Under the pieces are notes generated by a model. It saw only the letters and a program-made list of their open reading frames with translations, did not search any database and had not been told where the DNA came from. Positions 13,627 to 63,012 of a stretch of 64,000 bases of DNA are shown piece by piece (position 1 is the stretch's first letter; each line of letters begins with the position of its first letter). Location of the stretch: positions 93,947 to 157,946 of the forward strand of contig NKIY01000014.1 in assembly GCA_002256345.1 (NCBI GenBank), given 5' to 3'. The stretch comes from Bradyrhizobiaceae bacterium PARB1 (GTDB lineage: Bacteria > Pseudomonadota > Alphaproteobacteria > Rhizobiales > Xanthobacteraceae). Made by a program: the position numbers and the translations under genes.

Positions 13627-13712
13627 AAATCGATTGATTTGACACTTATAATCTGTTGGATTGATTGATTAAAGATGCCGATATTGGGTTGGTAAGCCAA
13701 TGGAGCCAACTC

Positions 13713-14816
13713 ATGAACACCCTAGCTTCGCCAATCGTTTCACGCGCCGACGTCACCGTCTCGCTCGACAACGATACCGCCGGACCCGTGCCTTCAGGAC
13801 CGGAACGTGGGCTGGGCGCTGCAACCTTGGCTGTCCTGCCGGGCTTGCTCCTGACGTCGGCGGTGGCGGCATCGGCTTATGCGCTCCGGCAGCTGCCGGG
13901 AATGGCGACGTTCAGCCCAATGATCCTCGCCATCCTGATCGGCATCGCCTTCCATAACCTCGCCGGCACGCCGGCGATCGCCAAGCCGGGAGTAACGTTC
14001 AGCCTGCGACGGCTGCTGCGCATCGCGATCATTTTGCTCGGGCTCCAATTAACGATCACACAGGTGATCGAGGTCGGTGGACGCGGCATCGGCATCATCG
14101 CGGCGACGTTGCTGGCCACTTTTGCTTTTACCGTATGGACAGGCAAACTGCTGGGCGTCGACCGCAAACTCGCGCAATTGATCGCAGCCGGAACATCCAT
14201 CTGCGGCGCTTCGGCTGTCATCGCGACCAACACGGTGACCAACGCTCATGATGAAGACGTTGCCTACGCGGTCGCCTGTGTGACAGTCTTCGGGTCGGTG
14301 GCGATGTTTGCCTATCCGCTATTGCCGGGGCTGTTACATCTCGATCCGCACGCGTTCGGATTATGGACCGGCGCATCGATTCACGAAATTGCGCAAGTCG
14401 TCGCGGCAGCTTTCCAGGATGGACAAAAGGCCGGCGAGTTCGCAACAATCGCAAAACTGTCGCGTGTCATGCTGCTCGCTCCCATGGTGATCGCGCTGGG
14501 ATTGATGGCGGCTCGCGCCGCCAAGAAGAACGATCCGGCCGCGAGCGCGTCATCGGCCCGGCCGCCGATGCCGTGGTTCGTGCTCGGCTTCGTGGCGCTG
14601 GTCGGCGTCAATAGCCTGATCACCGTTCCGGCCGAAGCAAAAGTCTGGGTTGTAGCAGTGACGACGTTCCTGCTCTCCGTTGCGCTGGCGGCGATGGGGC
14701 TGGAGACTGACATTCGCAAGCTGACGGCCAAGGGCTTTCGGCCTGCCATACTGGGCGCCCTCGCCTTCCTTTTCATCGCAGGCTTCAGTCTGGCGCTGAT
14801 CAAAATGATTGGGTAA
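13713..14816 (+). CDS. yeiH: YeiH-family putative sulfate/sulfite exporter
   Basis: A 367-residue inner-membrane protein of the YeiH/UPF0324 family with about ten membrane helices. Family marks are [15 protein letters not shown] near the N-terminus, [15 protein letters not shown], the [12 protein letters not shown] segment and the C-terminal [19 protein letters not shown]. Relatives are induced by sulfur compounds and are annotated as sulfate or sulfite exporters; transport has rarely been shown. The ATG at 13713 has a GGAG site upstream; a longer frame opens at 13665 inside the promoter region. The LysR gene follows after six bases. Confidence 0.88.
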
Positions 14817-14822
14817 CGGTTC

Positions 14823-15701
14823 ATGACGCTGGAACAGCTTCGTATCTTCATCGCGGTTGCGGAAAAGCAACATGTCACACAGGCAGCGAGCGAATTGAAC
14901 CTGACCCAATCAGCAACGAGCGCCGCGATCGCGGCGCTCGAATCGCGTTATGGTATCAAGTTGTTCGACCGTATCGGCCGAGGCATCGTGTTAACGCAGA
15001 CCGGGCGCGACTTCCTCGACGAAGCCCGCGCTGTCGTGGCGCGAGCCAAAACAGCAGCGCAGGTACTGAATGACCTAGCCGGGCTCAAACGTGGCGCGTT
15101 GGCCATCGCAGCCAGCCAGACTGTTGCAAACTATTGGCTACCGCCGCGCATCCAGACTTTTCACATGTCTTATCCTGGTATTAATCTCAACATGACGATT
15201 GCAAATACAGAGCAGGTCGCACGTGCCGTCCATCAGGGTTACGCAGATCTTGGGTTTGTGGAAGGTGAAGTCGACGATGCCTCCCTTACTATCAGCAAAA
15301 TGGATGGAGATTCGCTCATCGTGGTCGTTGGAACGAAACATCCATGGGTTGGTCGAACAAAAATTGCACCGAAAGACCTTTTGGCAGCCGATTGGGTATT
15401 GCGAGAGTCCGGCTCCGGCACGAGATCGATGTTCGAAACAGCGCTTCGGAAATTCAAAATCAAGCTATCCGATCTTCGACTCGCGCTAGAACTTCCGTCC
15501 AATGAAGCCGTACGCGCCGCGGTTGAAGCCGGCGACTGCGCCACCGCAATTTCAGACCTGGTTGTGAGAGCTTCGGTTACCGCCGGGACGCTTCACCGCG
15601 TTGAGATTGATTTACCGCGGCGGTCGTTTTTCTGGTTACGGCATAAAGAGCGATATGCGAGTCAGGCGGAGAAGGCATTCATTGCCTCCTTACGTGCCTA
15701 G
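14823..15701 (+). CDS. LysR-family transcriptional regulator
   Basis: A 292-residue LysR regulator. The winged helix is at residues 1-60 (LEQLRIFIAVAEKQHVTQAASELNLTQSATSAAIAALE region), then the linker helix and a periplasmic-binding-protein-like effector domain. It lies six bases behind the YeiH-type exporter gene, an arrangement like the yeiE/yeiH and CysB-related pairs, so the effector is probably a sulfur oxyanion. Unusually it is co-directional rather than divergent. No LysR box could be identified with confidence upstream of yeiH. Confidence 0.9.
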   Translation: MTLEQLRIFIAVAEKQHVTQAASELNLTQSATSAAIAALESRYGIKLFDRIGRGIVLTQTGRDFLDEARAVVARAKTAAQVLNDLAGLKRGALAIAASQTVANYWLPPRIQTFHMSYPGINLNMTIANTEQVARAVHQGYADLGFVEGEVDDASLTISKMDGDSLIVVVGTKHPWVGRTKIAPKDLLAADWVLRESGSGTRSMFETALRKFKIKLSDLRLALELPSNEAVRAAVEAGDCATAISDLVVRASVTAGTLHRVEIDLPRRSFFWLRHKERYASQAEKAFIASLRA

Positions 15702-43855: not shown

Positions 43856-46285
43856 TTAAACATGCAGGCCCAGTCTTTCGCCGACCTTCCAGAGCCGCCA
43901 GGCATCGTGCGGCATCTGGATGTGGCCTGCATTCAGAAACGCAAAGGCATCGTTCACTGCGTTAGAGAAACATGGCACGCCGCCGACATGGGGGCTTTCG
44001 CCCACGCCCTTGGCGCCGATCGGGTGATGCGGCGACGGCGTGACGGTGTAGTCCGTTTCCCACTTCGGCGTCTCCACCGCAGTCGGCAGGAAGAAATCCA
44101 TGAATGACGCGCCCATCACGTTGCCCTGTTCGTCGTAACGGATCTCCTGACCCATCGCGACGGCGAAGGCCTCAGTGAGACCACCGTGGACCTGTCCTTC
44201 GATAATCATGGGATTGATGCGCGTGCCGCAATCGTCGAGTGCATAGAAGCGCCGGGTCTTGGCGACGCCGGTATCGACATCGATGTCCATGACGCAGAAA
44301 TACGCGCCGAACGGATAGGTCATGTTCGGCGGATCGTAATAATTCACCGCCTCAAGACCCGGTTCCAGATTGGGCGGCGGACTGTTGTACGACGCCCAGG
44401 CGATTTCCTTCATGGTCTTGAATTTTTCAGGCAGACCCTTCACCCGGAAGCGATCAACGTCCCATTCAAGATCGCCTTCATGCACTTCGAGAAGGTGAGC
44501 CGCGATCATCTGCGCCTTGGCCTTGATCTTGCGCGCGGCCACGGCCGTGGCCGCGCCGGCGGTCGGCGTTGAACGCGAGCCATATGTACCAAGACCGTAA
44601 GGCGCAGTGTCAGTGTTGCCTTCCTCGATCATGATATCGTCGGCGGGAATGCCGAGTTCGGTGGCAATGATCTGGGCGTAGGTCGTCTCGTGGCCCTGCC
44701 CCTGGCTCTTGGTGCCCATGCGGGCGATGATCGAGCCGGTCGGATGGATGCGGATTTCGGCGGAGTCGAACATGGCGACGCCGAGAATGTCGCAATTCTT
44801 GGATGGACCGGCGCCGACGATCTCAGTGAAGAAGGAGATGCCGATGCCCATCAACTCGCGGGTTTCGCCACGCTTGAAGGCTTCCTGCTTTTGCTTCTGC
44901 TCGGCGCGCAGCGCACGATAGCCGACAGCATCCATCGCCTTTTTCATGGCGAGCGGATAGTTGCCGCTGTCGTATTCCCATCCGAGCGGAGCATGATACG
45001 GAAACTGCTCCGGCTGGATGAAGTTCTTGATGCGCAGGTCCGCCGAATCCATGCCGAGCCGCTGCGCCAGCGTCTCGATGGCGCGTTCGATGGCATAGAC
45101 CGCTTCCGTCACCCGGAATGAGCAACGATAGGCGACGCCACCCGATGCCTTGTTGGTGTAAACGCCGTCTACCGAGAGATACGCCACCGGCATGTCATAG
45201 GAGCCGGTGCAGATGTTCATGAAACCTGCCGGCCATTTCGACGGATCGGCGCAAGCGTCGAATGCGCCGTGATCGGCGAGCACATGGCAGCGCATGGCGA
45301 GGATCTTGCCGTCCTTGGTGGCGGCGAGTTCAGTCGTCATGTGGTAATCACGCGCAAACGAGGTGGTGGAGAGATTCTCCATCCGGTCCTCGACCCACTT
45401 CACCGGCACGCCCAGCACGATGGACGCGACCACCGCGCAGACATAGCCGGAATAGGCGCCAACCTTGTTGCCGAAACCGCCGCCGATATCCGGCGCGATC
45501 ACGTGGATCTTGTGCTCGGGCAACCCCGAGATCAGCGACACCACTGTGCGAATCACGTGCGGCGCCTGGAAGGTGCCCCACAGCGTCAATTCGCCCTTGA
45601 TCTTGTCCATCGAGGCGACGCACTGGCAGGTCTCCAGCGGCGACGGATGGACCCGGTGATAGGTAAACATATCCTTGGAGACGACGTCGGCCTTGGCAAA
45701 GGCTTCGTCGGTACCGTCCTTGTCGCCGATATCCCAGAAGAAGATGTGGTTGTGATGCTTGCGCGGTCCATGCGCGCCGGTCATCTTGTCCTTGATATCC
45801 TCGCGCAGCAGCGGCGCATCAGGCTCTAGTGCCTTAAACGGATCGACCAGAACCGGCAGCGGCTCGTATTCGACCTCGACGAGTTCGATCGCGTCGGCGG
45901 CGATGTAACGGTCCTTCGCCACCACGAACGCGACTTCCTGATTCTGGAACAGCACCTTCTCGTCGGCGAGCACGGCTTGCACATCGCCGGCCAGCGTCGG
46001 CATGTAGTGAAGATTGAGCGGCTTGAGGTCGGCGGCGGTCAGGACCGCAAGCACGCCCGGCAGCGCCTTGGCTTTCGAGGTGTCGATGCTCTTGATGCGG
46101 GCATGGGCGTGGGACGAGCGCACGAAATCCCCGAACAGCATGCCCGGCAGTTTCACGTCGTCGACATAGTTGCCCTTGCCTTGCGTGAAGCGGATGTCTT
46201 CGACGCGCTTGCGCTTGCACCCCATGCCCTGGAGTTTTTCGGCGCGCTCGGCGCTGGTGAGTTCGATTGGAGCCTGGACGTTCAT
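43856..46285 (-). CDS. coxL: Form I carbon monoxide dehydrogenase large subunit CoxL
   Basis: An 809-residue molybdopterin subunit of aerobic CO dehydrogenase, which oxidises CO with water to CO2. The form I active-site loop AYRCSFR gives Cys388, the copper ligand of the Mo-S-Cu centre, and Glu763 in [10 protein letters not shown] is the catalytic base; both numbers and the total length equal those of O. carboxidovorans. No signal peptide. The Moco-binding QGQGHETT segment is present. It overlaps coxS by four bases. A form II or xanthine-dehydrogenase-like role is excluded by the loop. Confidence 0.98.
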
Positions 46286-46782
46286 TCTGCGGCCTCCTGG
46301 AAAGGCACGCCATTGATCTTGGCTGCCGCGTATTGAATTGCCTTCACGATGTTCTGGTAGCCGGTGCAGCGGCAGAGATTCCCTGCGATACCAAACCGGA
46401 TTTCCTCTTCAGTCGGATTGGGATTTTCCTGCAGCAAGCGATGCGAGCGCATGATCATGCCCGGCGTGCAGTAACCGCACTGCAGGCCGTGCATCATGCG
46501 GAAGCCTTCCTGCAACGCGCTCAGCGTGCCGTCTGCGGCCGCCATGCCCTCGACGGTCGTAATCGACGAACCATTGGCCTGAATGGCGAATGTCGTGCAG
46601 CTTTTTACCGACATGCCGTCGAGATCGACGGTGCAAGCACCACAATGGCTGGTGTCGCAGCCGATGTGCGCACCAGTGAGATTTTGTTGTTCGCGGATGA
46701 AATGGATCAGCAGGGTGCGCGGCTCGACCAGCGCCTCCACCGGCTGCCCGTTGATCGTCAGCTCGATATGGGCTTTCGCCAT
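46282..46782 (-). CDS. coxS: CO dehydrogenase small iron-sulfur subunit CoxS
   Basis: A 166-residue protein with two [2Fe-2S] clusters that carry electrons from the molybdenum site to FAD. The N-terminal plant-ferredoxin domain has Cys42, Cys47, Cys50 and Cys62. The C-terminal helical domain has Cys102, Cys105, Cys137 and Cys139 (CGYC and CRC). Length and all eight positions match Oligotropha CoxS. It lies 21 bases behind coxM and overlaps coxL as ATGA. Confidence 0.98.
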
Positions 46783-46803
46783 GTTGGGTCTCTCCCTGAA
46801 TTT

Positions 46804-47670
46804 CTAGTTTTTCGCGCGGGACTTCGCCCGCTCGGCGGCGCGGCGCAGCATCACGCCAGCCATCTTGGTGCGGTATTCGGCAGGACCGCGGCCATCCGCC
46901 GCCGGACTGGTGATCGCCTCGGCCAACGCGACGGCCTTGTCGAGCGCCGCCTTGTCGAGCGCGGTGCCGACCAGTGCGTTGGCGGCTTCTTCAGCCCACA
47001 GCGGCGTATCGGCCACGTTGGTCAGCCCGATCGAAGCCGAGGTGCACTTGCCGCCACTCATGGTGAGAACGACCGCGGCCGCGGCGGTGGCATAGTCGCC
47101 GATTTTCCGTTTCAGTTTCTCGTAGGCATAGCCATGTCCAACCGGCGGCACCGGAATGCGAATCGCGGTCAGGATTTCGCCGGTCTCAAGGGCGGTGAAA
47201 TACGCCGCCTGATAAAACTCACGCGCTGCAACCCGGCGCACGCCATTCGGGCCGGTGAGTTCGTAGCTTGCGCCCAGACACTGCATCAGCGCGGGCATGT
47301 CGTTGCCCGGATCGCCGTTGGCGGCGTTGCCGCCGATGGTGCCCATGTAGCGGATTTGAGGATCGGCGATCAGCAGCGACGTCTCGCGAATGATCGGCAA
47401 TTTCGCCGCCAGCAGATCGGAACCGATCAGCGTGTGCTGGGTGGTCATCGCTCCGATAACGATGTCGCCGCCCTCTTCCCGGATCCCCTTGAGGTCTCCG
47501 ATGGCGCGCAAATCGACCAGATGCTCTGGCGTGGCCAGCCGGGTTTTCATCATCGGGATCAGGCTGTGGCCGCCGGCCAGGGGCCGGGCGTCTTCGCCGA
47601 GCTTCACCAGAAGCGCGACGGCATCGGCGACGGATTTCGGACGATGGTAGTCAAATGAACCAGGAATCAC
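46804..47670 (-). CDS. coxM: CO dehydrogenase FAD subunit CoxM
   Basis: A 288-residue flavoprotein that passes electrons from CoxS to the membrane. The two FAD-binding motifs AGGHS (residues 32-36) and TIGG (111-114) are at the positions known for Oligotropha CoxM. The C-terminal CO_deh_flav_C domain is complete. It is the first structural gene of the coxM-S-L set; 170 bases of upstream DNA separate it from coxC and should hold the CO-induced promoter. Confidence 0.97.
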   Translation of the reverse strand: MIPGSFDYHRPKSVADAVALLVKLGEDARPLAGGHSLIPMMKTRLATPEHLVDLRAIGDLKGIREEGGDIVIGAMTTQHTLIGSDLLAAKLPIIRETSLLIADPQIRYMGTIGGNAANGDPGNDMPALMQCLGASYELTGPNGVRRVAAREFYQAAYFTALETGEILTAIRIPVPPVGHGYAYEKLKRKIGDYATAAAAVVLTMSGGKCTSASIGLTNVADTPLWAEEAANALVGTALDKAALDKAVALAEAITSPAADGRGPAEYRTKMAGVMLRRAAERAKSRAKN

Positions 47671-51931: not shown

Positions 51932-52807
51932 TTAAGCAAAGGTCTGCGCGATATCGCCCCTCGCGTTGATAAGAGAGCTAATCGAGTCGAGCGTTTCGCT
52001 CTGGGAGGTTCTTCGCCCAATGGCAGCGAAAACTGTCCAGCTTGGCGCAAGGCCGTATTCGGCTCGGACGATGCCATAGCGGTCCGTAATTCCCATGTAT
52101 CCCCAAGGCTGCTGGAAATTGGACCCCGGAGCGGGTGGCGCAGGGATGGAGAATCCGGGCCGTACGCTCATCTTGTTTAGAGGCTGATCTCGCGTTTGAT
52201 CATGATAGCCGAGGTCCACTGACATTCGGAATCGCTCGCCGCGATAGTCCAGAGCGAGAGCGCACTGTCTGTCGAGCGGAGTGCCTCCGTTTCGATAGAC
52301 GCCGTTGAACCGCATGCCGAACTCTTTCGCGTCACCAAACCGCCGTCCGAAATCGATATGGGTGCCGAGCTGGCTTCTCGAGTCGTATGTCGCCGTCAGT
52401 TGTGTCACCGGCGTGTCGAGCGCGCGCTTGGGCACGGCGTTGATCGCCCCTCCCAGGCTTCCATGAAGGCTGGCGCCATTAAGCATGGCGCTTGGACCTT
52501 TGAGGGCTTCGATTCGTTCGAGGCTTTCAGGGGGAAAACCGGCGATCGGCGTCACACCCGCAAGTCCATTGAAAGTCAAATCCGAACTATTCACGAGAAA
52601 TCTGCGCATCGAAAATTCGAGATAGCCGGATCCCGCAGCCAGCGACCATCCAACGCGCGCGGATGCGTCGTTATTCAACACATCGGCGATGGTACGGGCC
52701 TGCTGGTCTGCGATGAGCTTGCTTGTGTATCGATTGCGGTCAGCACCGGGTCGAGCGCCTGATGCGCTTGCAATCACATTCAACGATCTCAGATCATAAC
52801 CAGACAA
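51932..52807 (-). pseudogene. TonB-dependent siderophore receptor fragment
   Basis: About 291 residues covering the plug domain and the first barrel strands of a FhuA/FpvA-type receptor: DLRSLNVIASASG, ADVLNNDASARVGW, RIEALKGPSAMLNGASLHGSLGGAIN and SVDLGYHDQT. The signal peptide and TonB box are missing (a stop lies directly before the TTG start), and about 400 C-terminal residues of barrel are missing after the TAA at 51932. It cannot form a channel and marks a recombination joint with the recombinase operon. Confidence 0.85.
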
Positions 52808-53188
52808 TCCTTACCGGCGCGAGATTTCTAACCCATACAAATCCTATACTTCTGATTCAACGAATCGCGCAACTGCGGCGGCGAGGCAGGCGGCTTCGCG
52901 GTAGCGGCTGGGTCCTATATTCGCCCTGCCTGATATTTGGACGAGCTTGGCGATACAGCTCGACGACGCAACCATCCAGTCAGCGATTGCCATTACAGGC
53001 GTTGCGAGGTGCAACTCGTTGCCATGATTGCGGCTTTTGCGGTTAAATCGCATTTCGGACGATAGCGATTGTAGGGTATCGCGCGACGAGCCGGATGATT
53101 GCGCCTTTCGGCTTGATCGCCGAGGTTGGATCGATATCGCCGCATGGCGCCACTGGCGGCGATGCTTCTTGCAAAAGTTCGGTTGTCT
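52808..53188. other. Degraded spacer before the catabolic cluster
   Basis: About 380 bases between the receptor fragment and the maleylacetate reductase stop. A minus-strand frame ending near 52844 (ELHLATPVMAIADWMVASSS and AACLAAAVARFVESEV) has a protein-like ring and faintly recalls the end of an IclR-type regulator, but it has no start or HTH. No intact gene was seen. Confidence 0.3.
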
Positions 53189-54259
53189 CTACATTGGCGA
53201 GTCGGGAACCGCGCCATTCCAGGCGCGTTCGATAAGGTCGCGGAGAGGAGCTGCCTCCAGCGGACGCGGATTCCAATATGGATTCGATAATACCCGTGCG
53301 ACTGTCGAATCGATGCCCTCTCGCGGCATTTTGAGGGTGGCCAGGGAGCGGGGAATTCCGTCCACTCTAGCAAATTCGAACAAGCGGTGCTGCGGCGAGG
53401 GATCACCGAGCGCGGCTTGAAGGCGCCCGTACGCTTCTGCCATTGCGATCTGGTTGTACGCAAGCGTGTGAGGAAGAAGAATCGCGTGAAGTTCGGCATG
53501 AGGTAAATCGAAGGCGCCGCCCAATTCGTGACAAAGCTTGTGGTGAAGCCCCATTCCTGCCGCATTGAGGCATATGCCGGCGAGCCAGGCTCCATAGAGC
53601 GCGTCCTGGCGGGCAACGAGATCGGACGGTGTTTCAACGATGTTCGGGATGGCTCTCGCCATTGCACTGATCGCGCGTTCGGCGATGTCGGAAATCAGCG
53701 GGCTTCCATTCTGGGCATACATCGCCTCGACTGCATGGGCGATCGCGTTCAAGCCCGACATTACCGAGACTGGAGTGGGCAAATCTCGGGTATTCGATAC
53801 ATCATACAGGACGGTCGCTGGTAGAATGGCCCGGTTGCGGTGCGTCTGTTTCTTGCCCTGGCTGGTTTCGCCGAGGATGGAGGTCATCTCCGAGCCCGAA
53901 TAGGTGGTGGGGATCGCAAGATGTGGCAGGCCCGTGCGTAGGCTCAATGCCTTGCCGAGACCGATCGATGAGCCGCCTCCGAATGAGACGAAACCATCCG
54001 CTCTAACGGATCGTGCATAACGAAGTGCATCTTCAGTCACATTGACAGGAGTGTGGACCTCCGCCCCATCGTACAGGCCGGCGATGGCGAAGGGCGAAGA
54101 ATCCGGAAACGAGGTCCATTTCGCGGCACCTCGGCGTGTCGTCACCAGAAGTGGGGCGCACACGCCGAGCGAAGCAGTCTCGGCCGCCAGCACGTCGAGG
54201 CCGACGACGCCAAAAACCACCCGTGGGATGGCGCTATCGAATGTAAATGACTGGAGCAT
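53189..54259 (-). CDS. Maleylacetate reductase
   Basis: A 356-residue iron-type alcohol dehydrogenase-family enzyme that reduces maleylacetate to 3-oxoadipate with NAD(P)H in the cytosol. The nucleotide-binding GGGSSIGLGKAL and the following LAIPTTYSGSEMTS are typical of maleylacetate reductases, as are HHKLCHELGGAFDLPHAELHAILLPH, with the active-site histidines, and the PRPLEAAPLRDLI end. It lies 13 bases after marR in the same operon. Maleylacetate arises from chlorocatechol, hydroxyquinol or 4-sulfocatechol routes; the neighbours point to the last. Confidence 0.9.
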   Translation of the reverse strand: MLQSFTFDSAIPRVVFGVVGLDVLAAETASLGVCAPLLVTTRRGAAKWTSFPDSSPFAIAGLYDGAEVHTPVNVTEDALRYARSVRADGFVSFGGGSSIGLGKALSLRTGLPHLAIPTTYSGSEMTSILGETSQGKKQTHRNRAILPATVLYDVSNTRDLPTPVSVMSGLNAIAHAVEAMYAQNGSPLISDIAERAISAMARAIPNIVETPSDLVARQDALYGAWLAGICLNAAGMGLHHKLCHELGGAFDLPHAELHAILLPHTLAYNQIAMAEAYGRLQAALGDPSPQHRLFEFARVDGIPRSLATLKMPREGIDSTVARVLSNPYWNPRPLEAAPLRDLIERAWNGAVPDSPM

Positions 54260-54272
54260 TTGGATATCCGTT

Positions 54273-54851
54273 TCAGTCTCGGGTTAAACCCGCAAATTTT
54301 CGCGGCCTCCGCGCCCTTAGCGCGCCGGTCGATGCGCGCGTACCAGTCCCAGTCCGAGAGGTGGCCGCCACGGGCTCGGCGATCGTCGGAGCTTCATCGG
54401 CCAACGCCGTCACGAGTTTGGTGAGAAGCCGTACAATCTCTTTTCGCTCCCTCTGGTCGAGAGCGGCAAGAAGGCGCTCGGAGACGTTGAGAGCCGCCGC
54501 GTTTGCAGGCTTGAGCAAATCCCGGCCGCGCGAGGTTAGCGCGACGATTCGTCGCCGGCCGTCTTTCGGGTCGAGCTTTCTCTGCAGTAAGCCGCGCGCT
54601 TCGAGACGGCCGACGACTTGCCCGACAGTCGCACGGTCGATGCCGAGCGCTTTGCCGAGGGTGATCTGATCGAGTGCGCCCCATCGTCCGAGCGCCAGCA
54701 GGTGGACATGCTGAGGCGGCGTGAGGCCAATCTTCGCGGTTTCTTGCTCGGCGAGACTCATCAGGATCTGGTTCGCGCGTCGTACCAGAAAGCCCGGTCG
54801 TTCATGAAGATCGGGCGGAGAGTGGCGGAGTTTGACAGGGGCTTTGCTCAT
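54273..54851 (-). CDS. MarR-family regulator of the aromatic cluster
   Basis: A 192-residue MarR-type repressor. The winged helix reads GLTPPQHVHLLALGRWGALDQITLGKALGIDRATVGQVVGRLEARGLLQRKLDPKDGRRR. The C-terminal 40 residues are rich in Arg, Ala and Thr and are longer than usual. I chose ATG 54851 because homology begins there; the open frame runs on to 55313 through the divergent hydrolase gene. It is cotranscribed with maleylacetate reductase and divergent from the catabolic operon across a 12-base palindrome. The inducer is probably an aromatic sulfonate or acid. Confidence 0.9.
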   Translation of the reverse strand: MSKAPVKLRHSPPDLHERPGFLVRRANQILMSLAEQETAKIGLTPPQHVHLLALGRWGALDQITLGKALGIDRATVGQVVGRLEARGLLQRKLDPKDGRRRIVALTSRGRDLLKPANAAALNVSERLLAALDQRERKEIVRLLTKLVTALADEAPTIAEPVAATSRTGTGTRASTGALRARRPRKFAGLTRD

Positions 54852-54871
54852 GGCTTGCCATCTTATATCAT

Positions 54872-54883
54872 AGTATGCATACT
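54872..54883. promoter_or_regulatory. MarR-type palindrome in the divergent catabolic promoter
   Basis: AGTATGCATACT is a perfect 12-base palindrome in an AT-rich 66-base gap, 20 bases before marR and 34 bases before the hydrolase start. It fits a site where the MarR protein represses both directions. Confidence 0.6.
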
Positions 54884-54917
54884 TACAAACAACGCTTGGG
54901 AGAGAGATGCTGATCTG

Positions 54918-55832
54918 ATGGACACCGAAGTTGTAATAAGGGACTGTCTCGGACCTCCGGCGAGGGTATCTCGCCCGACGTGGTCGTTGCCCGCAGGCAG
55001 CTGGGATACTCATTTCCACGTTCTCGGGCCGCAGAATAGGTTTCCCTTTGCCGCGAACCGTAAATACACCCCACCTGACGCCTCGTTCGAGGCCTGCCGC
55101 AGTTTTCATCAGGCCTTGGGCATCGAGCGTGGCTTCGTCGTGCACGCCAATACGCACGGGTTCGACAACACCGTCGATCTCGACGCGACCGCGCGTTCGG
55201 AGGGCCAATATCTCGCCGTGGTCCGGCTTGACGGTACGGCGACCCCGGAAAGCTGTCGCGCTCTGCATCGCGCAGGAGCGCGTGGGGTGCGCTTTGCCTT
55301 CAATCCTCAACATGGAGGGACGCTAGACCGCGCAGTGTTCGATCATGTTCTTCATTGCATTGGCGATCTAGGATGGTTCGTTGAACTGCATTTCGCCGGA
55401 TCCGCGTTGCCTGAACTGGAATCATGGATTGCGTCGATCCCCATTCCCGTTGTCATCGATCATTTCGGCCGCATCGACCCGCGGCATGGACTCTATGATC
55501 CTTCCTTTGAAGTGTTGGTTTCGCTCGCCGGGCGTGACAACATCTGGGTCAAGATCAGCGGCGCGGACCGAATTTCCCATCAAGGCCAGCCCTATACCGA
55601 TGTCGTGCCGTTCGCGCACCGGCTCGTGGCGGTGGCGCCGGAGCGCCTTCTTTGGGGAAGCGATTGGCCCCACACGGGGTACTTCGACGCCGGCCGGTTC
55701 CCCGACGCGGGAAAGCTTCTCGACGCGTTCGCGGCTTTCGTCCCGGAAGAGCGGGTAAGGACGGCGATCCTCGTTGACAACCCTCTGAGACTGCTCGGAG
55801 AGGCTACGATCCCGCCTCTCTGCCTCGACTAG
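54918..55832 (+). CDS. LigI-like lactone hydrolase, candidate 4-sulfomuconolactone hydrolase
   Basis: A 304-residue amidohydrolase-2 TIM-barrel protein of the 2-pyrone-4,6-dicarboxylate lactonase (LigI) type. Metal or active-site motifs are WDTHFHVLGP near residue 30, VVHANTHGFDN, VIDHFGRIDP and LLWGSDWPHTG. In the known 4-sulfocatechol pathway a hydrolase of this family opens 4-sulfomuconolactone to maleylacetate and sulfite. It is the first gene of the plus-strand operon. No lig pathway genes (ligAB, ligC, ligJ, ligK) accompany it, which argues against the LigI reaction. The start ATG 54918 lacks a strong ribosome site. Confidence 0.82.
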   Translation: MDTEVVIRDCLGPPARVSRPTWSLPAGSWDTHFHVLGPQNRFPFAANRKYTPPDASFEACRSFHQALGIERGFVVHANTHGFDNTVDLDATARSEGQYLAVVRLDGTATPESCRALHRAGARGVRFAFNPQHGGTLDRAVFDHVLHCIGDLGWFVELHFAGSALPELESWIASIPIPVVIDHFGRIDPRHGLYDPSFEVLVSLAGRDNIWVKISGADRISHQGQPYTDVVPFAHRLVAVAPERLLWGSDWPHTGYFDAGRFPDAGKLLDAFAAFVPEERVRTAILVDNPLRLLGEATIPPLCLD

Positions 55833-55851
55833 TTGCATTATGGAGGGCGCC

Positions 55852-56403
55852 ATGCACGACCCCGGCATCGATATCGGGACCTGCCCGAGTGAAGAGTTCG
55901 GACCTATCGGCAAGATGTTAATGGTTGCCAGCAAATGGCTCGCGATCGCGGGCGGGATCGTACTCGTCGCGCTTGTCGTGATGTCGGTGGTCTCGATCGT
56001 TGGTCGCAAGCTCTGGTCAGCTCCGGTGCCCGGCGACGTCGAAGTTTTGCAGCTCAGTGCGGCCTCCTCTGTGTCGACCTTTTTTGCTTGGTGCCATCTT
56101 ACTCGCGGCGACGTCAAGGTCGACTTCTTTACCAATTCGCTGCCTCGCTGGGCCATTGATATGCTTGACGGCGTCGGATCGTTATTGCTGGCGGGAATGG
56201 CGCTGTTACTTGGATGGCGCGCCACTGTCGGGGCTTTGTCGGTGCGGCTCTATGGCGAGACTTCGACCATTCTTGCCTGGCCGGTCTGGATTCCCCAGAT
56301 CCTGATGGTACCGGGCTTCGTTTTGCTCGCCGCCTCCGGATTTTATATGGCCGCATTATCACTCCGCAACGCGTACGGCTCTTTGGACAGGAGCGTACGA
56401 TGA
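55852..56403 (+). CDS. dctQ: TRAP transporter small permease DctQ
   Basis: A 183-residue membrane protein with four helices, the small subunit of a TRAP transporter. The family segment reads SVVSIVGRKLWSAPVPGDVEVLQ, with VDFFTNSLP in the loop. I chose ATG 55852, five bases behind a GGAGG site; the frame opens at 55840. It overlaps dctM as ATGA. The ligand of the system is probably an aromatic acid or sulfonate fed to the enzymes encoded downstream. Confidence 0.92.
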   Translation: MHDPGIDIGTCPSEEFGPIGKMLMVASKWLAIAGGIVLVALVVMSVVSIVGRKLWSAPVPGDVEVLQLSAASSVSTFFAWCHLTRGDVKVDFFTNSLPRWAIDMLDGVGSLLLAGMALLLGWRATVGALSVRLYGETSTILAWPVWIPQILMVPGFVLLAASGFYMAALSLRNAYGSLDRSVR

Positions 56404-57728
56404 GCGGGACGCAAACCGCCTTTCTCGTTTTCGGCGGATTGATGCTTCTCCTCGCGCTCCGCGTGCCGATCGGAGTAGCAATGTTCGTCGCCGGTGCGGC
56501 GGGATATCTTCTGCTCACCGACGGCAGCATCGCAACCTTCCTCGTCAATCTGAACTACCTGCCGTTCGCACGGCTCTCGAACTATGACCTTGCGGTTATC
56601 CCGTTGTTTCTTCTCATGGGGCAATTCGCGACTCATGGCGGACTGAGCCGGCTTTTATTCGGATTCGTCAGGGCATTTCTCGGCCACCGGCGCGGCGGCA
56701 TGGCGATGGCGGCCGTGGGCGCCTGTGCGGGCTTCGGTGCGATCTGCGGTTCTTCGCTCGCCACGGCGGCAACGATGGGGCAAGTGGCTCTACCCGAACT
56801 GCGCCGATACGGCTATTCGGGAAGCTTGGCGACCGGAGCGCTGGCGGCCGGAGGCACGCTCGGCATCATGATCCCGCCCTCCGTTCCGTTGATCATCTAC
56901 GCGGTCTTGACGCAGGAATCGATCGGCAAGCTCTTCATGGCGGCGGCCGTCCCAGGATTGCTTGCGATGTTCGGCTACATGCTGGTCATCCGCATCATCG
57001 TAGCTTTCGATCCTGCCGCGGGGCCTGCGGGCCCACGTGCCTCCAATTCCGAGCGCATTCAAGCCCTTCTGCAAGTCTCTCCCGTTCTTTTTGTCTTCCT
57101 GGTGGTGGTTGTGGGCATCTATGGCGGCTGGGCGACGCCAACGGAAGCGGCCGCGCTGGGCGCGGCGGCATGCGGCTTCTTGGCGGTCACGACGGGCGGA
57201 ATGCGACTACCGGGCCTGAAGGCAAGCGTACTCGGCACTGCGCAAACCACCGCGATGATCTATCTGGTGCTGCTCGGCGCCGACATGATGAACCATACTC
57301 TCGCTCTTTCCCAATTGCCGGTTACGCTGGCGGAATGGGCGAAAGGCAGCGGCATGCCGCCACTCACTATCATGCTCATAATTCTGTTGATCTATATCTT
57401 TCTTGGATCGGTGATGGACTCGCTCGCGATGATCCTGCTGACCATTCCGATCTTTTATCCGATGGTTATGGGTCTCGACTTCTTTAGCCTGTCGCCCGAC
57501 GAGAAGTCGATCTGGTTCGGCATCCTGGCCCTTATGGTGGTCGAGATCGGTCTGGTTCATCCGCCTATCGGCATGAACGTCTACATCATCAACCGTCTCG
57601 CCAAGGACGTTCCCCTCACCCAGACCTTCAAGGGCGTAATGCCTTTCCTGCTGTCGGACGCCATACGCCTCATCCTGCTGGTATTTATACCGGGCATATC
57701 GTTGTTTCTGGTGCGTGCATTTCATTAG
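56400..57728 (+). CDS. dctM: TRAP transporter large permease DctM
   Basis: A 442-residue permease with about twelve helices that couples Na+ entry to solute uptake. Family marks are RVPIGVAMFVAGAAGYLL, the SLATAATMGQVALPELRRYGYSGSLATGALAAGGTLGIMIPPSVPLIIYA stretch and the C-terminal LVHPPIGMNVYIIN. The start is ATG 56400, overlapping the dctQ stop as ATGA; the open frame begins earlier at 56214. It is followed 40 bases later by the binding-protein gene. Confidence 0.94.
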   Translation: MSGTQTAFLVFGGLMLLLALRVPIGVAMFVAGAAGYLLLTDGSIATFLVNLNYLPFARLSNYDLAVIPLFLLMGQFATHGGLSRLLFGFVRAFLGHRRGGMAMAAVGACAGFGAICGSSLATAATMGQVALPELRRYGYSGSLATGALAAGGTLGIMIPPSVPLIIYAVLTQESIGKLFMAAAVPGLLAMFGYMLVIRIIVAFDPAAGPAGPRASNSERIQALLQVSPVLFVFLVVVVGIYGGWATPTEAAALGAAACGFLAVTTGGMRLPGLKASVLGTAQTTAMIYLVLLGADMMNHTLALSQLPVTLAEWAKGSGMPPLTIMLIILLIYIFLGSVMDSLAMILLTIPIFYPMVMGLDFFSLSPDEKSIWFGILALMVVEIGLVHPPIGMNVYIINRLAKDVPLTQTFKGVMPFLLSDAIRLILLVFIPGISLFLVRAFH

Positions 57729-57768
57729 TGATCTCTACTGAACAAGTCACCGAGGAGGAGAAGCGATC

Positions 57769-58809
57769 ATGATCAAGACAAGACTACGAGCTCTCGGATT
57801 TGCAAGCATCTTTGCTGTCGTTGCCGTTCAGTCCGCGAGCGCCCAGACGACGACGCTCAAGGTTCATCATTTCCTGCCGGCAACCTCGAACGCCCATACG
57901 AACTTGATCAAGCCATGGTGCGATAAGATCAACAAGGACTCGAACGGGCGGTTGCAGTGCCAGATCTATCCAGCCATGCAACTTGGCGGGACGCCTGCCC
58001 AGTTGTTTGATCAGGCGCGCGATGGCGCCGTCGACATCGTGTGGACCGTCCTCAGCTATCAGGCGGGACGTTTCACGAAGTCGGAGGTATTTGAACTTCC
58101 GTTCCTCATCCGCTCCGCCGAGGAAGGCAGCCGCGCTTTGTGGGCCTACATGGAGAAGAATTCGAAGGATGAATTGAGAGGCGTTCACCCGATCTTCATG
58201 CATGTACACGATGGCGCGGTGCTCCACTCCACTTCCAAGTCGGTAGCGACGCTGGAGGATCTTAAGGGACTCAAGATCCGTGCCGCCAATCGCGTCAATG
58301 CGGTGATGTTGACAGCGCTTGGCGCAACTCCCGTGCAGATGCCGCTGCCGCAGGTACCTGAATCGATGACCAAGGGCGTCGTCGATGGCGCTATGGTGCC
58401 TTGGGAGGGCGTGCCGGCGGTGAAATTTCAGGAAATTGCCAAATTCTCTTTGGAGACGCCGGCGGACGCGGGAAAGTTCTCGAACTCCATTTTTGCCTTC
58501 GTCATGAACGAGAACAAATACAAGTCCCTCCCAGCCGACCTGCAGAAGGTCATCGATGAAAATGGAGGGATCGAGATGTCCGGGCAGGCCGGGCGGCGAG
58601 CCTTCGACGACGTCGTCGAGCCTTTCAGAAAGCAGGCCATCGAGAACGGCGATAAGGTGACCTCCCTGTCGCAGGATGAATTAAAGCGCTGGCAGGCGGC
58701 AAGCGAGAAGGTTTACGACGCTTGGTTCGCCGAGATTGCAAAAAAGGGTGGCGACGGAAAACGCCTGCTTCAAGATGCCCGTGAATTGCTTGAGAAGAAC
58801 CGGCGGTAG
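57769..58809 (+). CDS. dctP: TRAP transporter substrate-binding protein DctP
   Basis: A 346-residue periplasmic binding protein with a signal peptide (residues 1-25, ends ASA). DctP-fold marks are VHHFLPATSNAHTNLIKPWCDKIN, GAVDIVWTVLSYQAGRF, LKGLKIRAANRVNAVMLTALGATPVQMP with the conserved ligand Arg, and GVVDGAMVPWEGV. The Arg binds a carboxylate in most TRAP ligands and could equally bind a sulfonate. A GGAGGAGAAG ribosome site precedes the ATG. A 50-base gap leads to the dioxygenase genes. Confidence 0.93.
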   Translation: MIKTRLRALGFASIFAVVAVQSASAQTTTLKVHHFLPATSNAHTNLIKPWCDKINKDSNGRLQCQIYPAMQLGGTPAQLFDQARDGAVDIVWTVLSYQAGRFTKSEVFELPFLIRSAEEGSRALWAYMEKNSKDELRGVHPIFMHVHDGAVLHSTSKSVATLEDLKGLKIRAANRVNAVMLTALGATPVQMPLPQVPESMTKGVVDGAMVPWEGVPAVKFQEIAKFSLETPADAGKFSNSIFAFVMNENKYKSLPADLQKVIDENGGIEMSGQAGRRAFDDVVEPFRKQAIENGDKVTSLSQDELKRWQAASEKVYDAWFAEIAKKGGDGKRLLQDARELLEKNRR

Positions 58810-58826
58810 CGCTCGGCATTAATTGA

Positions 58827-60211
<1,385 letters not shown>

Positions 60212-60284
60212 CCGGTTTCAAAATCCCCACCCCACTTATCGCCTTCGCAATGATGGCTCGACTCCAAGACCTGAGGAACGGCTC

Positions 60285-61475
60285 ATGCCCGTGAAAATAC
60301 GAACACAAGTTGGAATAATTGGCGCGGGGCCTGCCGGGCTCTTGCTGGCATATATGTTGAGAAGGGCGGGGATCGATTCGGTCATTCTCGAAAAGCGGAG
60401 CCGTTCCTACATTCTGGGTCGCGTTCGCGCCGGCGTTATGGAGCAGGCGACCCGCGATCTTCTGATCGAGCTGGGACTTGGTGATCGGCTTTGTCGCGAC
60501 GGTCTGCTGCACAAGGGATTCGAGATTCGCTTCGCCAACGAACGGCGACGCATCGACCTTTCAGAACTGACGGGCGGAAAGGTTATTACGGTCTACGGAC
60601 AGCAGGAAGTCGTCAAGGATCTTCTTGCCGCGCTCGAACAGGAGAACTATCCGCTGCACTTCGAGATCGACGATGTTCACCTTGAAGGCATAGACGAGGG
60701 AGCGCCATGCATACGCGGCCGCGGCGCCGAAGGACCGATCGAGATTAGTTGCGATTTTATTGCCGGCTGCGATGGCTTCTACGGAGTGTCGAGGCCCTCC
60801 ATTCCCGACGGCGTCCTGTCGGTGCTATCTCGTGAATATCCCTTTGCCTGGCTGAGCATACTGGCCGAGGCGCCATCGGCATCGCACGAATTGATCTATG
60901 CGCATCACCAGCGCGGTGGCGCTATCTACTCGATGCGAAACAAGCGACTGAGTCGGCACAATCTTCAGTGTGATCCGGACGGAGCGGCGAAAAGCTGGCC
61001 CGCGGATAAGATATGGGACGAACTCGAAGTCCGGTTGAATGCCGATAACAGCGAGCGGCTTCCCCGCGGCCCGATCCTCGATCGTGTGATCACGCGGATG
61101 CGCAGCTTCGTTGTGGAGCCCATGCAGTACGGGTCATTGTTCCTCGCCGGAGATGCTGCCCATATTGTGCCCCCGACTGGAGCAAAGGGTATGAATCTGG
61201 CCGTCGCCGATATCAAATGCCTGGCAGCCGGTTTCATCGAGCACTATCGTGCCGGCCGGCGAGACAAACTGAACGCATATTCCACAATTTGTCTTGCGCG
61301 CATCTGGCGGGTTCAGCGGTTTAGCTGGTGGATGACCTCTATGTTCCATCGCTTCCCGGATCAGGACACGTTCACAGCTCATATGCAGATCGCCGAACTT
61401 GATCACGCGACGGGCTCGCAAGCCGCCGCGGCTTCGCTGGCCGAGAATTATGTCGGTTTGCCCCACAGCTGTTGA
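60285..61475 (+). CDS. pobA: PobA-like FAD aromatic hydroxylase, altered substrate site
   Basis: A 396-residue class A flavin monooxygenase of the 4-hydroxybenzoate 3-hydroxylase family. FAD motifs are GAGPAGLLLAYML near residue 14 and GDAAHIVPPTGAKGMNLAVAD near 286. Aligned by eye to the Pseudomonas enzyme, Tyr201, Ser212, Arg214 and Tyr385 positions are kept (ELIYAHHQRGG, IYSMR, ENYVGLP), but the Tyr222 position, which binds the substrate carboxylate, is Asn. A 4-hydroxybenzenesulfonate hydroxylase making 4-sulfocatechol is my inference. Start ATG 60285; the frame opens at 60201 inside pcaG. Confidence 0.88.
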   Translation: MPVKIRTQVGIIGAGPAGLLLAYMLRRAGIDSVILEKRSRSYILGRVRAGVMEQATRDLLIELGLGDRLCRDGLLHKGFEIRFANERRRIDLSELTGGKVITVYGQQEVVKDLLAALEQENYPLHFEIDDVHLEGIDEGAPCIRGRGAEGPIEISCDFIAGCDGFYGVSRPSIPDGVLSVLSREYPFAWLSILAEAPSASHELIYAHHQRGGAIYSMRNKRLSRHNLQCDPDGAAKSWPADKIWDELEVRLNADNSERLPRGPILDRVITRMRSFVVEPMQYGSLFLAGDAAHIVPPTGAKGMNLAVADIKCLAAGFIEHYRAGRRDKLNAYSTICLARIWRVQRFSWWMTSMFHRFPDQDTFTAHMQIAELDHATGSQAAAASLAENYVGLPHSC

Positions 61476-61561
61476 GGGCCTGTCGCAGGCAGGCCTTTGT
61501 CCAGACCGGCATTTGAAGGTACATCAATTAGGCGCGGCAGCCTGTACATTCGAGTCGAGGT

Positions 61562-62680
61562 TCAGTCCTTCAGTCTTTGTTCCGACGGTCGTTGGAAGTC
61601 GGGTGAGGATGCGACGAAACGGACAGACCCTCCCAGTAGAGCACAAGCCTTTCGCAGTGAGGCGGCGGTCGAGATTGCCATCTGAGGAAGAACAAGCCAT
61701 TCAAGCGTCCATGCCGAGCCGGATCTCTCGTTCTCGTGCACGAGGGCTTGATGAAGAAGGCCGAGCAAGCCTGCATTGAAGCGCGCCAGTGTCACTAGCA
61801 TCTCGGCCTGAACGGGGTTCGACTTATGCGGAATGGATGAAGAGCCGCCTCCCGATGAACCGAGACGAATTTCATCCACCTCGTTCTGCGTCATGAGAAC
61901 AATGTCTTGACCGATCTTGCCTAGAGTTCCAGATACCAGCGATAGCCAGCTTGCGAATGTCCCGATACGATCACGCTGCGCGTGCCATGGTGGGGTGGAG
62001 CCTAGCATGAGCCGCGAGGCCATGGCGTCGGCGACGGCATCGCCTTGTCCCCGCAAGTCTTCGCGAGTCCCGATCGGCCCACCGAATTGAATAACGAGCA
62101 GCCGGGGCATGAGGTCGCGAAGAGCCGCATGGTAATGCTCGAGCGGAGCGATCCAGGTAGCAAGCTTAGCACCCGCAGTGAATGGTCGAGCCCGTTGCAT
62201 TCGGGTTCTGGCGATCAGTGGAACAGCACCGTCGCGCCGCCTTAGCTCGGCAAGCGCACCGATTACCGCGTCGAGCCGGTCGAGCAGGAGTGCTGCGAGA
62301 TCCTTTAGGCGCAATGCGAGGCCGGTGTCCACGATGTCCTGGCTGGTCGCGCCAAGATGGACCGCTTGTGCGTACCTCTCACCAACGGCAGCGCGCAACT
62401 GTCGTACGAGGTCCGGCACTACGACGCCATCCCGCGCGAGACCCGCTGCCAAGCTGTCCCAGTCGACGCTCAAATCCCGGCAAACGTCAGCAATCCGTTG
62501 TGCCGCTTCGTTCTCAATCAAGCCCAGGTCGGCCTCAGCCCCAGCGAGCGCCGCCTCGACCCGAAGCATCGCCTCTATTTCCGCAGCGTTGCAGAAAAGC
62601 CGGCCGGCTTCATCGTCGCCAACCAAGACGTTCAGCAACGGAAAAGAGGGAGGATGGTTGATCACGGGAGGCATCGTCAA
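61562..62680 (-). CDS. pcaB: PcaB-like cycloisomerase (3-sulfomuconate candidate)
   Basis: A 372-residue member of the fumarase/aspartase superfamily, matching 3-carboxy-cis,cis-muconate lactonizing enzyme. Marks are VHLGATSQDIVDTGLALRLKD near residue 110, RTRMQRARPFTAGAKLATWI and the signature GSSSIPHKSNPVQAE near 285; the usual Met after SSS/T is Ile. PcaB2 enzymes of 4-sulfocatechol degraders cyclise 3-sulfomuconate to 4-sulfomuconolactone. It is convergent with pobA, 86 bases apart, and faces an IS-damaged region upstream, so its promoter may be recent. No pcaC or pcaD accompanies it. Confidence 0.9.
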   Translation of the reverse strand: MTMPPVINHPPSFPLLNVLVGDDEAGRLFCNAAEIEAMLRVEAALAGAEADLGLIENEAAQRIADVCRDLSVDWDSLAAGLARDGVVVPDLVRQLRAAVGERYAQAVHLGATSQDIVDTGLALRLKDLAALLLDRLDAVIGALAELRRRDGAVPLIARTRMQRARPFTAGAKLATWIAPLEHYHAALRDLMPRLLVIQFGGPIGTREDLRGQGDAVADAMASRLMLGSTPPWHAQRDRIGTFASWLSLVSGTLGKIGQDIVLMTQNEVDEIRLGSSGGGSSSIPHKSNPVQAEMLVTLARFNAGLLGLLHQALVHENERSGSAWTLEWLVLPQMAISTAASLRKACALLGGSVRFVASSPDFQRPSEQRLKD

Positions 62681-62754
62681 TCGGCGAGTAACAACGCTGG
62701 AGATACGTTGTTACATACTAGAATTCCTCACTTGGAGCGAGTACAATTTTAGGT

Positions 62755-63012
62755 CTAACGATACGCAGCAGCGCACCGTGTCGCGAAGCGGCGGAAGTGC
62801 TTGAGGTGGTTGAAGCAGCGCTCGATGCGGTTGCGATGCTTGTAAGCCGCGGCATCGTGCGGGATCAGGATCTTGCGGCTGCGGTTTGAGGGGATCACCG
62901 CCTCGGCATTCATGTCGGCGATGAGGGCACGAAAGGCATTGCTGTCATAGGCTTTGTCGGCGAGGAGAGCCTTGCCGGCCTGGCCTTCGAGCAATGCCTG
63001 CGCATTCCAGGG
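62755..63012 (-). pseudogene. IS5-family transposase C-terminal fragment
   Basis: About 86 residues from the end of an IS5 (IS427/ISL2-like) transposase: QALLEGQAGKALLADKAYDSN, the AEAVIPSNRSRK segment and the catalytic Glu region YKHRNRIERCFNHLKHFRRFATR. The N-terminal two thirds are missing. It is cut at about 63012 by repeats that look like the end of an IS21 element, and its end lies 74 bases from the pcaB start. Confidence 0.8.

Follow-up and report, generated by a model that had tools for sequence, protein, structure and literature searches.

Degradation of 4-sulfocatechol by the products of pcaH2G2 and pcaB2, a hydrolase and a maleylacetate reductase (MAR) has been described in Hydrogenophaga intermedia and in Novosphingobium resinovorum SA1, according to the available portion of PMC5632844. 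Comamonas testosteroni KF-1 is reported to grow on 4-sulfophenol, with the genes for that part called unpublished in 2013; 4-sulfocatechol itself was not used for growth, and phenolsulfonate is an intermediate of surfactant breakdown in this strain (available portion of PMC3746432). In the open-licence literature, with most subscription papers outside this scope, no PobA-type 4-hydroxybenzenesulfonate hydroxylase and no version of the cluster with PobA and TRAP (tripartite ATP-independent periplasmic) transporter genes was found. Here, a ten-gene cluster was analysed that lies at positions 53189-62665 of a 64,000-nucleotide stretch (the window) of Bradyrhizobiaceae bacterium PARB1 (contig NKIY01000014.1, positions 93,947 to 157,946; contig C14 in our set). 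The cluster is probably a plasmid-borne catabolic unit, predicted from sequence to convert 4-hydroxybenzenesulfonate (4-phenolsulfonate) via 4-sulfocatechol into 3-oxoadipate and sulfite. It is likely a variant of the known 4-sulfocatechol pathway, and its new part would be a predicted sulfonate-specific branch of PobA.

Searches for open reading frames and family profiles gave ten stop-free genes and one candidate regulatory site.

53189-54259, minus strand: MAR, 356 aa, assigned by solved relatives and the RefSeq name of the matching plasmid gene
54273-54851, minus strand: MarR regulator, 192 aa (Pfam MarR)
54872-54891, plus strand: candidate MarR operator AGTATGCATACTTACAAACA, a 12-base palindrome with a conserved tail (shuffle statistics)
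54918-55832, plus strand: 4-sulfomuconolactone hydrolase-like (LigI-like) amidohydrolase (NF042924, 365 bits, cut-off 500; in a clade with the H. intermedia S1 and SA1 enzymes)
55852-56403, plus strand: TRAP small permease DctQ (Pfam DctQ)
56400-57728, plus strand: TRAP large permease DctM (TIGR00786, above cut-off)
57769-58809, plus strand: TRAP solute-binding protein DctP (NF037995, above cut-off; nearest solved structures 5im2, 7nr2 and 7nsw)
58860-59588, plus strand: PcaH-like beta subunit of a dioxygenase, carrying T326F and W449V (TIGR02422, 323 bits, cut-off 296)
59585-60211, plus strand: PcaG-like dioxygenase alpha subunit (TIGR02423, 237 bits, cut-off 126)
60285-61475, plus strand: PobA-like flavin hydroxylase, 396 aa, with Asn222 (subfamily profile NF006091, PRK08243, reached with 553 bits, cut-off 351; equivalog TIGR02360 not reached with 506 bits, cut-off 539)
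61562-62665, minus strand: PcaB-like cycloisomerase of the conventional Rhizobiales type, 367 aa (equivalog NF004631, 3-carboxymuconate cycloisomerase in its short Rhizobiales form, reached with 459 bits, cut-off 371)

The plus-strand genes follow each other in the order hydrolase-DctQ-DctM-DctP-PcaH-PcaG-PobA, with pobA co-directional with pcaHG and the pcaB-like gene pointing towards pobA from the opposite strand. This gene content had been proposed in a preliminary description of the DNA, and it was borne out by the open frames and family matches, in the case of MAR through the solved relatives and the RefSeq name. The absence of pcaC and pcaD noted there also held for the contig, on which the PcaC and PcaD profiles had no match, and the four functions of the known set (PcaHG, PcaB, hydrolase and MAR) are encoded together without these two genes.

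An identical gene order, with 100.0% identity over window positions 53000-63000, was observed on two conjugative Bradyrhizobium plasmids (from strain SK17 and from B. betae PL7HG1), which also match positions 1-25000. By inference from these matches, the replicon of the window is itself a plasmid, of Bradyrhizobium or a close relative. In a Bradyrhizobium metagenome-assembled genome (MAG; locus L028), the cluster is present with 96.7% DNA identity as far as a contig end inside pobA. A chance grouping of the genes was ruled out, since the order is common to the two plasmids and the MAG. The cluster is rare: at E<=1e-150 its PobA was found in 1 of 391 genomes of the window's family, namely the window's own genome. 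The block in common with the MAG starts exactly at window position 49929, marking a module border, and at this position both plasmids hold an extra segment of about 3 kb with an IS110 gene, where the matches overlap by 8 bases.

In the predicted pathway, the TRAP transporter would import the 4-hydroxybenzenesulfonate anion, and the PobA-like enzyme, with a changed clamp (Y222N) and with Y201, Y385 and P293 kept, would hydroxylate it next to the phenol group to give 4-sulfocatechol. Intradiol cleavage by PcaHG would yield 3-sulfomuconate, which PcaB would lactonise to 4-sulfomuconolactone, and the LigI-like hydrolase would turn the lactone into maleylacetate and sulfite. MAR would then reduce maleylacetate to 3-oxoadipate, which would feed into the ordinary lower pathway of the genome. 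SorAB, encoded on this replicon, could oxidise the sulfite, and MarR would likely repress both divergent operons via the motif at 54872.

The hydrolase was compared with known enzymes in a quick tree of 52 rows, with long branches among the outsiders, in which it fell within a clade of 32 (SH-aLRT 97) that includes the 4-sulfomuconolactone hydrolases of H. intermedia S1 and SA1, and LigI and two LigI-like proteins of the window's own genome fell outside this clade. Among 27 inspected columns, 26 are as in SA1 and 25 as in S1; the mismatches are position 122, with Arg against Cys in both enzymes, and, for S1 alone, position 131 (Gln, against Glu). The pocket has the NPQHG loop, H158, GADR and Y226, whereas LigI has NLKRLV, Tyr, CPDR and Trp. 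The LigI pocket residues are not present, and the hydrolase lies on a separate branch. A LigI pathway through 2-pyrone-4,6-dicarboxylate was set aside, since the annotation of the 28.9 kb of plasmid SK17 that match the window, for which the gene table is incomplete, lists no extradiol dioxygenase.

The gene neighbourhoods of the hydrolase clade were also tallied. An intradiol dioxygenase gene was found in the same stretch for 22 of the 32 clade members and a MAR gene for 16 of 32, against 0 of 17 scanned loci outside the clade in both cases; this tally includes copies that are not independent (L033-L037 identical; L045, L047 and L049 nearly so) and several short contigs, and it omits L009, L052 and L070 (one copy and two partial genes). 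The six loci L008, L009, L027, L026, L029 and L030 combine a single-chain intradiol dioxygenase match with a hydrolase of this clade, five of them with a Rieske oxygenase match as well. The identical hydrolases of L033-L037 come from five MAGs that carry the labels Pseudomonadales, Verrucomicrobiota, Pseudomonadota, Gemmatimonadetes and Proteobacteria, which reflects either a mobile element or mis-binning. The RefSeq start of the window's hydrolase (54987) drops a CLGP segment common to most relatives, and a start near 54918 therefore fits better. For MAR, the closest solved structure was 3jzd (iron-containing alcohol dehydrogenase), followed by the maleylacetate reductases 3w5s and 3hl0, and no NCBIfam cut-off was reached.

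The PobA-like protein would account for the first step. In PobA, the substrate carboxylate is bound by Tyr222, Ser212 and Arg214 (available portion of PMC10770758; binding also in that of PMC3546652), and the Y222A variant of XaPobA showed little activity towards each of its two test substrates (PMC10770758, same portion). The window and MAG proteins have Asn at position 222. Tyr stands there in 118 of the 119 nearest homologues (P0121, which is the gene of this cluster, is not counted), as well as in the PobA encoded elsewhere in the genome and in the p-hydroxybenzoate hydroxylase (PHBH) reference chain. The only other Asn222 among the 119 belongs to P0122, which is 61% identical, also has His221 and lies on a 5 kb contig. 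Ser212, Arg214, Tyr201, Tyr385 and Pro293 are retained, and the clamp of Ser212, Arg214 and Tyr222 is changed at position 222. Since Tyr222 is lost while the phenol-side residues and Ser212/Arg214 are kept, the enzyme should accept a ring that has its hydroxyl group in para position, is probably anionic and presents another group to the clamp. At another locus (L046:7710-9593), a PobA-like protein has Trp201, Met210 and Phe385, the pattern of protocatechuate 5-hydroxylases; its gene lies near PcaB-like and hydrolase-like genes, the hydrolase-like protein having Gln for His32, and the locus may put the same parts to another use.

Two substitutions in PcaH point in the same direction. In the numbering used here (P. 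putida beta numbering plus 300), F326 and V449 each lie two positions past a tyrosine, Tyr324 and Tyr447 respectively. Tyr447 is presumably an iron ligand, and positions 326 and 449 are taken by us, from P. putida structures, to line the pocket near the ring substituent. Among 118 near homologues, a set without P0241 (the gene of this cluster) and P0242 (a protein with an internal repeat), Thr326 and Trp449 were each found in 114, Phe326 in 1 and Val449 in 3, and all of these Phe326 and Val449 cases fall within P0243, P0244 and P0305, the closest clade of the window's PcaH. Phe326 together with Val449 or Ile449 was present in 6 of 6 PcaH rows of the type encoded by the SA1 sca cluster (one with Ile449; two rows identical and a third nearly so), and Trp449 in the genome's conventional PcaH and in those of ADP1 and P. 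putida. The tree places the window's PcaH in a conventional, mainly betaproteobacterial branch and requires at least two separate changes away from Trp449. The same changes in two lineages would be the convergence expected if both had adapted to the same unusual substrate, and we infer that residues 326 and 449 may decide specificity. P0243, with both F326 and V449, represents 55 members, with 1000 contigs listed, and is itself a candidate 4-sulfocatechol dioxygenase; its gene context was not found, the best match being 74% among plasmids and 77% among 399 genomes of the family of H. intermedia. P0305 resembles a chimera with P0243.

PcaB was placed among conventional Rhizobiales enzymes (100/100), beside Microvirga and Methylocella proteins, and the gene of the Methylocella relative adjoins pcaH, pcaG and pcaF. 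Both PcaH and PcaB descend from conventional protocatechuate-type enzymes, and the cluster recruited at least two of its enzymes independently of the known 4-sulfocatechol degraders. The trees rule out orthology of the cluster's PcaH and PcaB to pcaH2G2 and pcaB2.

A decayed copy of the cluster, at 99.9% identity, was found on contig L070 of Nitratireductor alexandrii. In this copy, the MAR match ends after 183 residues and the hydrolase match after 41, pcaG has no start, and the TRAP genes and pcaH are missing between the hydrolase and pcaG remnants. MarR is unchanged and PobA is complete with one substitution, so that PobA is the sole catabolic gene seen intact, pcaB lying beyond the contig end. 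The copy still has the sequence that precedes the plus-strand operon (L070:9925-10003), with one base missing from the palindrome between marR and the hydrolase start, and regulation may be altered in this copy. Over 6575 bases, the backbone of L070 matches pSA3, which carries the 4-sulfocatechol genes of N. resinovorum SA1, at 100% identity, and the N. alexandrii assembly also holds its own sca-type genes with TRAP genes. A hydroxylase retained beside an existing lower pathway fits a role in making 4-sulfocatechol. The possibility that the lower pathway handles 4-sulfocatechol and PobA makes it from another precursor, such as 4-aminobenzenesulfonate, or that the unit serves a longer sulfophenyl compound, is quite unlikely. 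The entry enzyme does vary among known clusters, one example being the sad dioxygenase, which acts on sulfanilate (available portion of PMC5632844), but the residues that handle the 4-hydroxy group (Y201, Y385 and P293) are kept, and pobA is both co-directional with pcaHG and the only catabolic gene seen intact in the Nitratireductor remnant.

The genome was also searched for protocatechuate genes outside the cluster. On contig C17, a PcaB relative (38%), a PcaD match that exceeds its cut-off and a PcaC match that narrowly misses its own adjoin one another, and a separate pobA and a separate conventional pcaHG are present, the latter adjoining a frame that resembles, by eye, 3-oxoadipyl-CoA thiolase. 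A second close MAR copy was not found in the genome, the next match being 26%. With its own pobA, pcaHG and pcaB-pcaD-pcaC group elsewhere and MAR in no second copy, the genome gains from the cluster something beyond 4-hydroxybenzoate use. It is therefore very improbable that the cluster is an ordinary 4-hydroxybenzoate/protocatechuate module with the LigI-like and MAR genes as bystanders. Such a module would agree with the grouping of PcaH and PcaB with conventional enzymes and with their passing of the protocatechuate-pathway cut-offs, but not with the missing pcaC and pcaD on the contig, the loss of Tyr222 from PobA and Trp449 from PcaH, or the position of the hydrolase outside the LigI branch.

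Sulfite-handling genes were found on the same replicon.

5038-6249, minus strand: SorA sulfite dehydrogenase catalytic subunit (NF052245, 703 bits, cut-off 600)
13665-15701, plus strand: YeiH-type exporter and YeiE-like LysR regulator (TIGR00698, 191 bits, cut-off 232.6; NF040889, 218 bits, cut-off 480; both below cut-off)

SorB is annotated adjoining SorA on plasmid SK17, and the SorAB and YeiH/YeiE-like genes lend circumstantial support to sulfite handling. They are part of a sulfur-oxidation block at window positions 3700-25000 that also includes SoxA-like and SoxB-like genes (below cut-off), DsbD and, above its cut-off, thiosulfate dehydrogenase TetH.

For uptake, a TRAP binding protein that takes aromatic acids has been described in R. 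palustris (available portion of PMC3610893). The solved structures nearest to the window's DctP are presumably those of aromatic-acid binders. TRAP genes also occur in sca-type clusters and are therefore not unique to the window's cluster. For regulation, MarR is 64% identical over 137 aa to the MarR adjoining a hydrolase-MAR locus in Ottowia thiooxydans (L025). The palindrome AGTATGCATACT lies inside the 20-base motif, in the gap that separates marR from the hydrolase gene. When up to 3 mismatches were allowed, 0 occurrences of the 20-base motif were expected in 100 shuffles; the 12 bases of the palindrome taken by themselves, allowing up to 2 mismatches, were no rarer than chance. A degenerate form of the motif was found just upstream of the hydrolase gene in L024 (a MAG), L025 and L028.

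Several results weigh against the 4-hydroxybenzenesulfonate pathway. PcaH and PcaB both pass protocatechuate-pathway profile cut-offs; PcaH and PcaG of SA1 pass the same cut-offs, which therefore do not separate the types. Approximately unbiased (AU) tests rejected joining PcaH with the sca-type PcaH rows (p-AU 8e-5) and PcaB with sca-type PcaB (p-AU 8e-81), and PcaB gave no sign of altered specificity in the features tested. PcaH2 of H. intermedia S1, the dioxygenase of the literature, was not found in its draft genome (best match 35%), so F326 and V449 are tied to function only via cluster membership. NF042924, the sole NCBIfam match of the hydrolase, was not reached as a curated equivalog (365 bits against 500, compared with 607 for SA1, 604 for S1, 593 for Pseudaminobacter and 369 for Delftia), and the protein is 52% identical to that of SA1. 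Its subclade relatives lie in clusters with single-chain dioxygenases and Rieske oxygenases, to which no substrate is assigned. As Ser212 and Arg214 are kept, N222 alone does not name the new group. SorA lies about 47 kb from the cluster, outside the operon. The N. alexandrii assembly is a draft, and its sca contig is nearly identical to an Antarcticimicrobium contig; contamination is possible.

The width of the hydrolase clade, with its clusters of unassigned substrate, and the inability of Y222N alone to name the group also bear on a further alternative, in which the same chemistry acts on a phenol whose para substituent is another group (phosphonate, arsonate, halogen, nitro or alkoxy) that can depart as an alcohol or anion; maleylacetate would result if C4 of the muconolactone bears a good leaving group. 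This alternative is unlikely, given that the nearest named hydrolases act on sulfomuconolactone, that PcaH has the same two changes as PcaH of sulfonate clusters, that a sulfite dehydrogenase is on the replicon, that the TRAP importer suggests an anionic substrate, and that the assembly with the remnant of the cluster has a sca cluster as well.

The conversion of 4-hydroxybenzenesulfonate to maleylacetate and sulfite, as put forward in the preliminary description, therefore stands as the best explanation, with residue-level support, but as a prediction. The description had also proposed phylogenetic comparison of the enzymes, with grouping of PcaHG and PcaB with protocatechuate enzymes as an outcome speaking against it. 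The hydrolase grouped with sulfomuconolactone enzymes, apart from LigI, and its proposed kinship was upheld by clade and pocket letters, though not by the equivalog score. PcaH and PcaB grouped with the protocatechuate type, and the statement that the cluster has exactly pcaH2G2 and pcaB2 was contradicted by their placement and by the AU tests. We lean slightly towards a fuller account, in which a PobA-family enzyme would have become a 4-hydroxybenzenesulfonate hydroxylase through loss of Tyr222 and the pathway would have been assembled anew from conventional protocatechuate genes, with convergent T326F and W449V in PcaH and spread on conjugative plasmids together with sulfite oxidation.

If correct, this would provide a candidate enzyme for entry into the 4-sulfocatechol route from phenolsulfonate and three candidate carboxylate-to-sulfonate switches (PobA Y222N, PcaH T326F and W449V), the latter two in two separate lineages. 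It would also indicate a plasmid route for trading sulfonate-pathway parts among Bradyrhizobium, Nitratireductor and Novosphingobium-type plasmids. Other genes near the cluster include those for an aerobic carbon monoxide dehydrogenase (43856-47670, about 5.5 kb to its left; large subunit 1599 bits, cut-off 991) and a TonB-dependent receptor fragment of 291 aa (51932-52807) that matches only the start of its family profile.

Compared with known systems, the PobA-like protein shares family, length and phenol-side residues with PobA/PHBH, but has Asn for Tyr222, Ile for Leu210 and His at 221. The hydrolase shares the amidohydrolase family and several catalytic-site residues with the 2-pyrone-4,6-dicarboxylate hydrolase 4d8l, presumably LigI, but differs in the pocket loop, in Tyr-to-His158 and Trp-to-Tyr226, and in its separate branch. 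For the solved chains 1cj2, 2pcd, 1eo2, 4d8l and 2fel, the species and enzyme names are likewise presumptive where they go beyond the molecule names. The Delftia plasmid clusters (NZ_CP065696 and NZ_CP065749) have a hydrolase that is 66% identical, MAR, a lyase and an intradiol dioxygenase; unlike in the window, this dioxygenase is one 355-aa chain, a Rieske oxygenase and a VanB-like reductase are present, and there is no PobA frame.

In Pseudaminobacter salicylatoxidans, N. alexandrii and Antarcticimicrobium luteum (L049, L047 and L045), TRAP genes lie inside the sca-type cluster, as in the window, but their DctP is 29% identical, PcaB is of the sca type and no PobA frame was found in the stretches scanned. 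H. intermedia S1/PBC (pcaH2G2-pcaB2-4SLH-MAR) has the same lower-pathway steps, and the S1 hydrolase belongs to the clade of the window's enzyme; unlike in the window, the pathway is fed by the sad sulfanilate dioxygenase from another genome region, PcaB is of the other branch, and the available portion of PMC5632844 mentions no PobA or TRAP for this set. The sca cluster of SA1 (pSA3, NZ_CP017078) shows no PobA-, TRAP- or MarR-like frame in the 24.9 kb examined and has an IclR regulator, and its PcaB (36% identical) and PcaH belong to other branches. It resembles the window's cluster in uniting PcaH, PcaG, PcaB, MAR and 4-sulfomuconolactone hydrolase on one mobilisable plasmid, in F326 and V449 of PcaH, in its hydrolase (52% identical) and MAR (49% identical), and in its flanking YeiH and TauE-type genes, a YeiH-type exporter being present on the window's replicon too.

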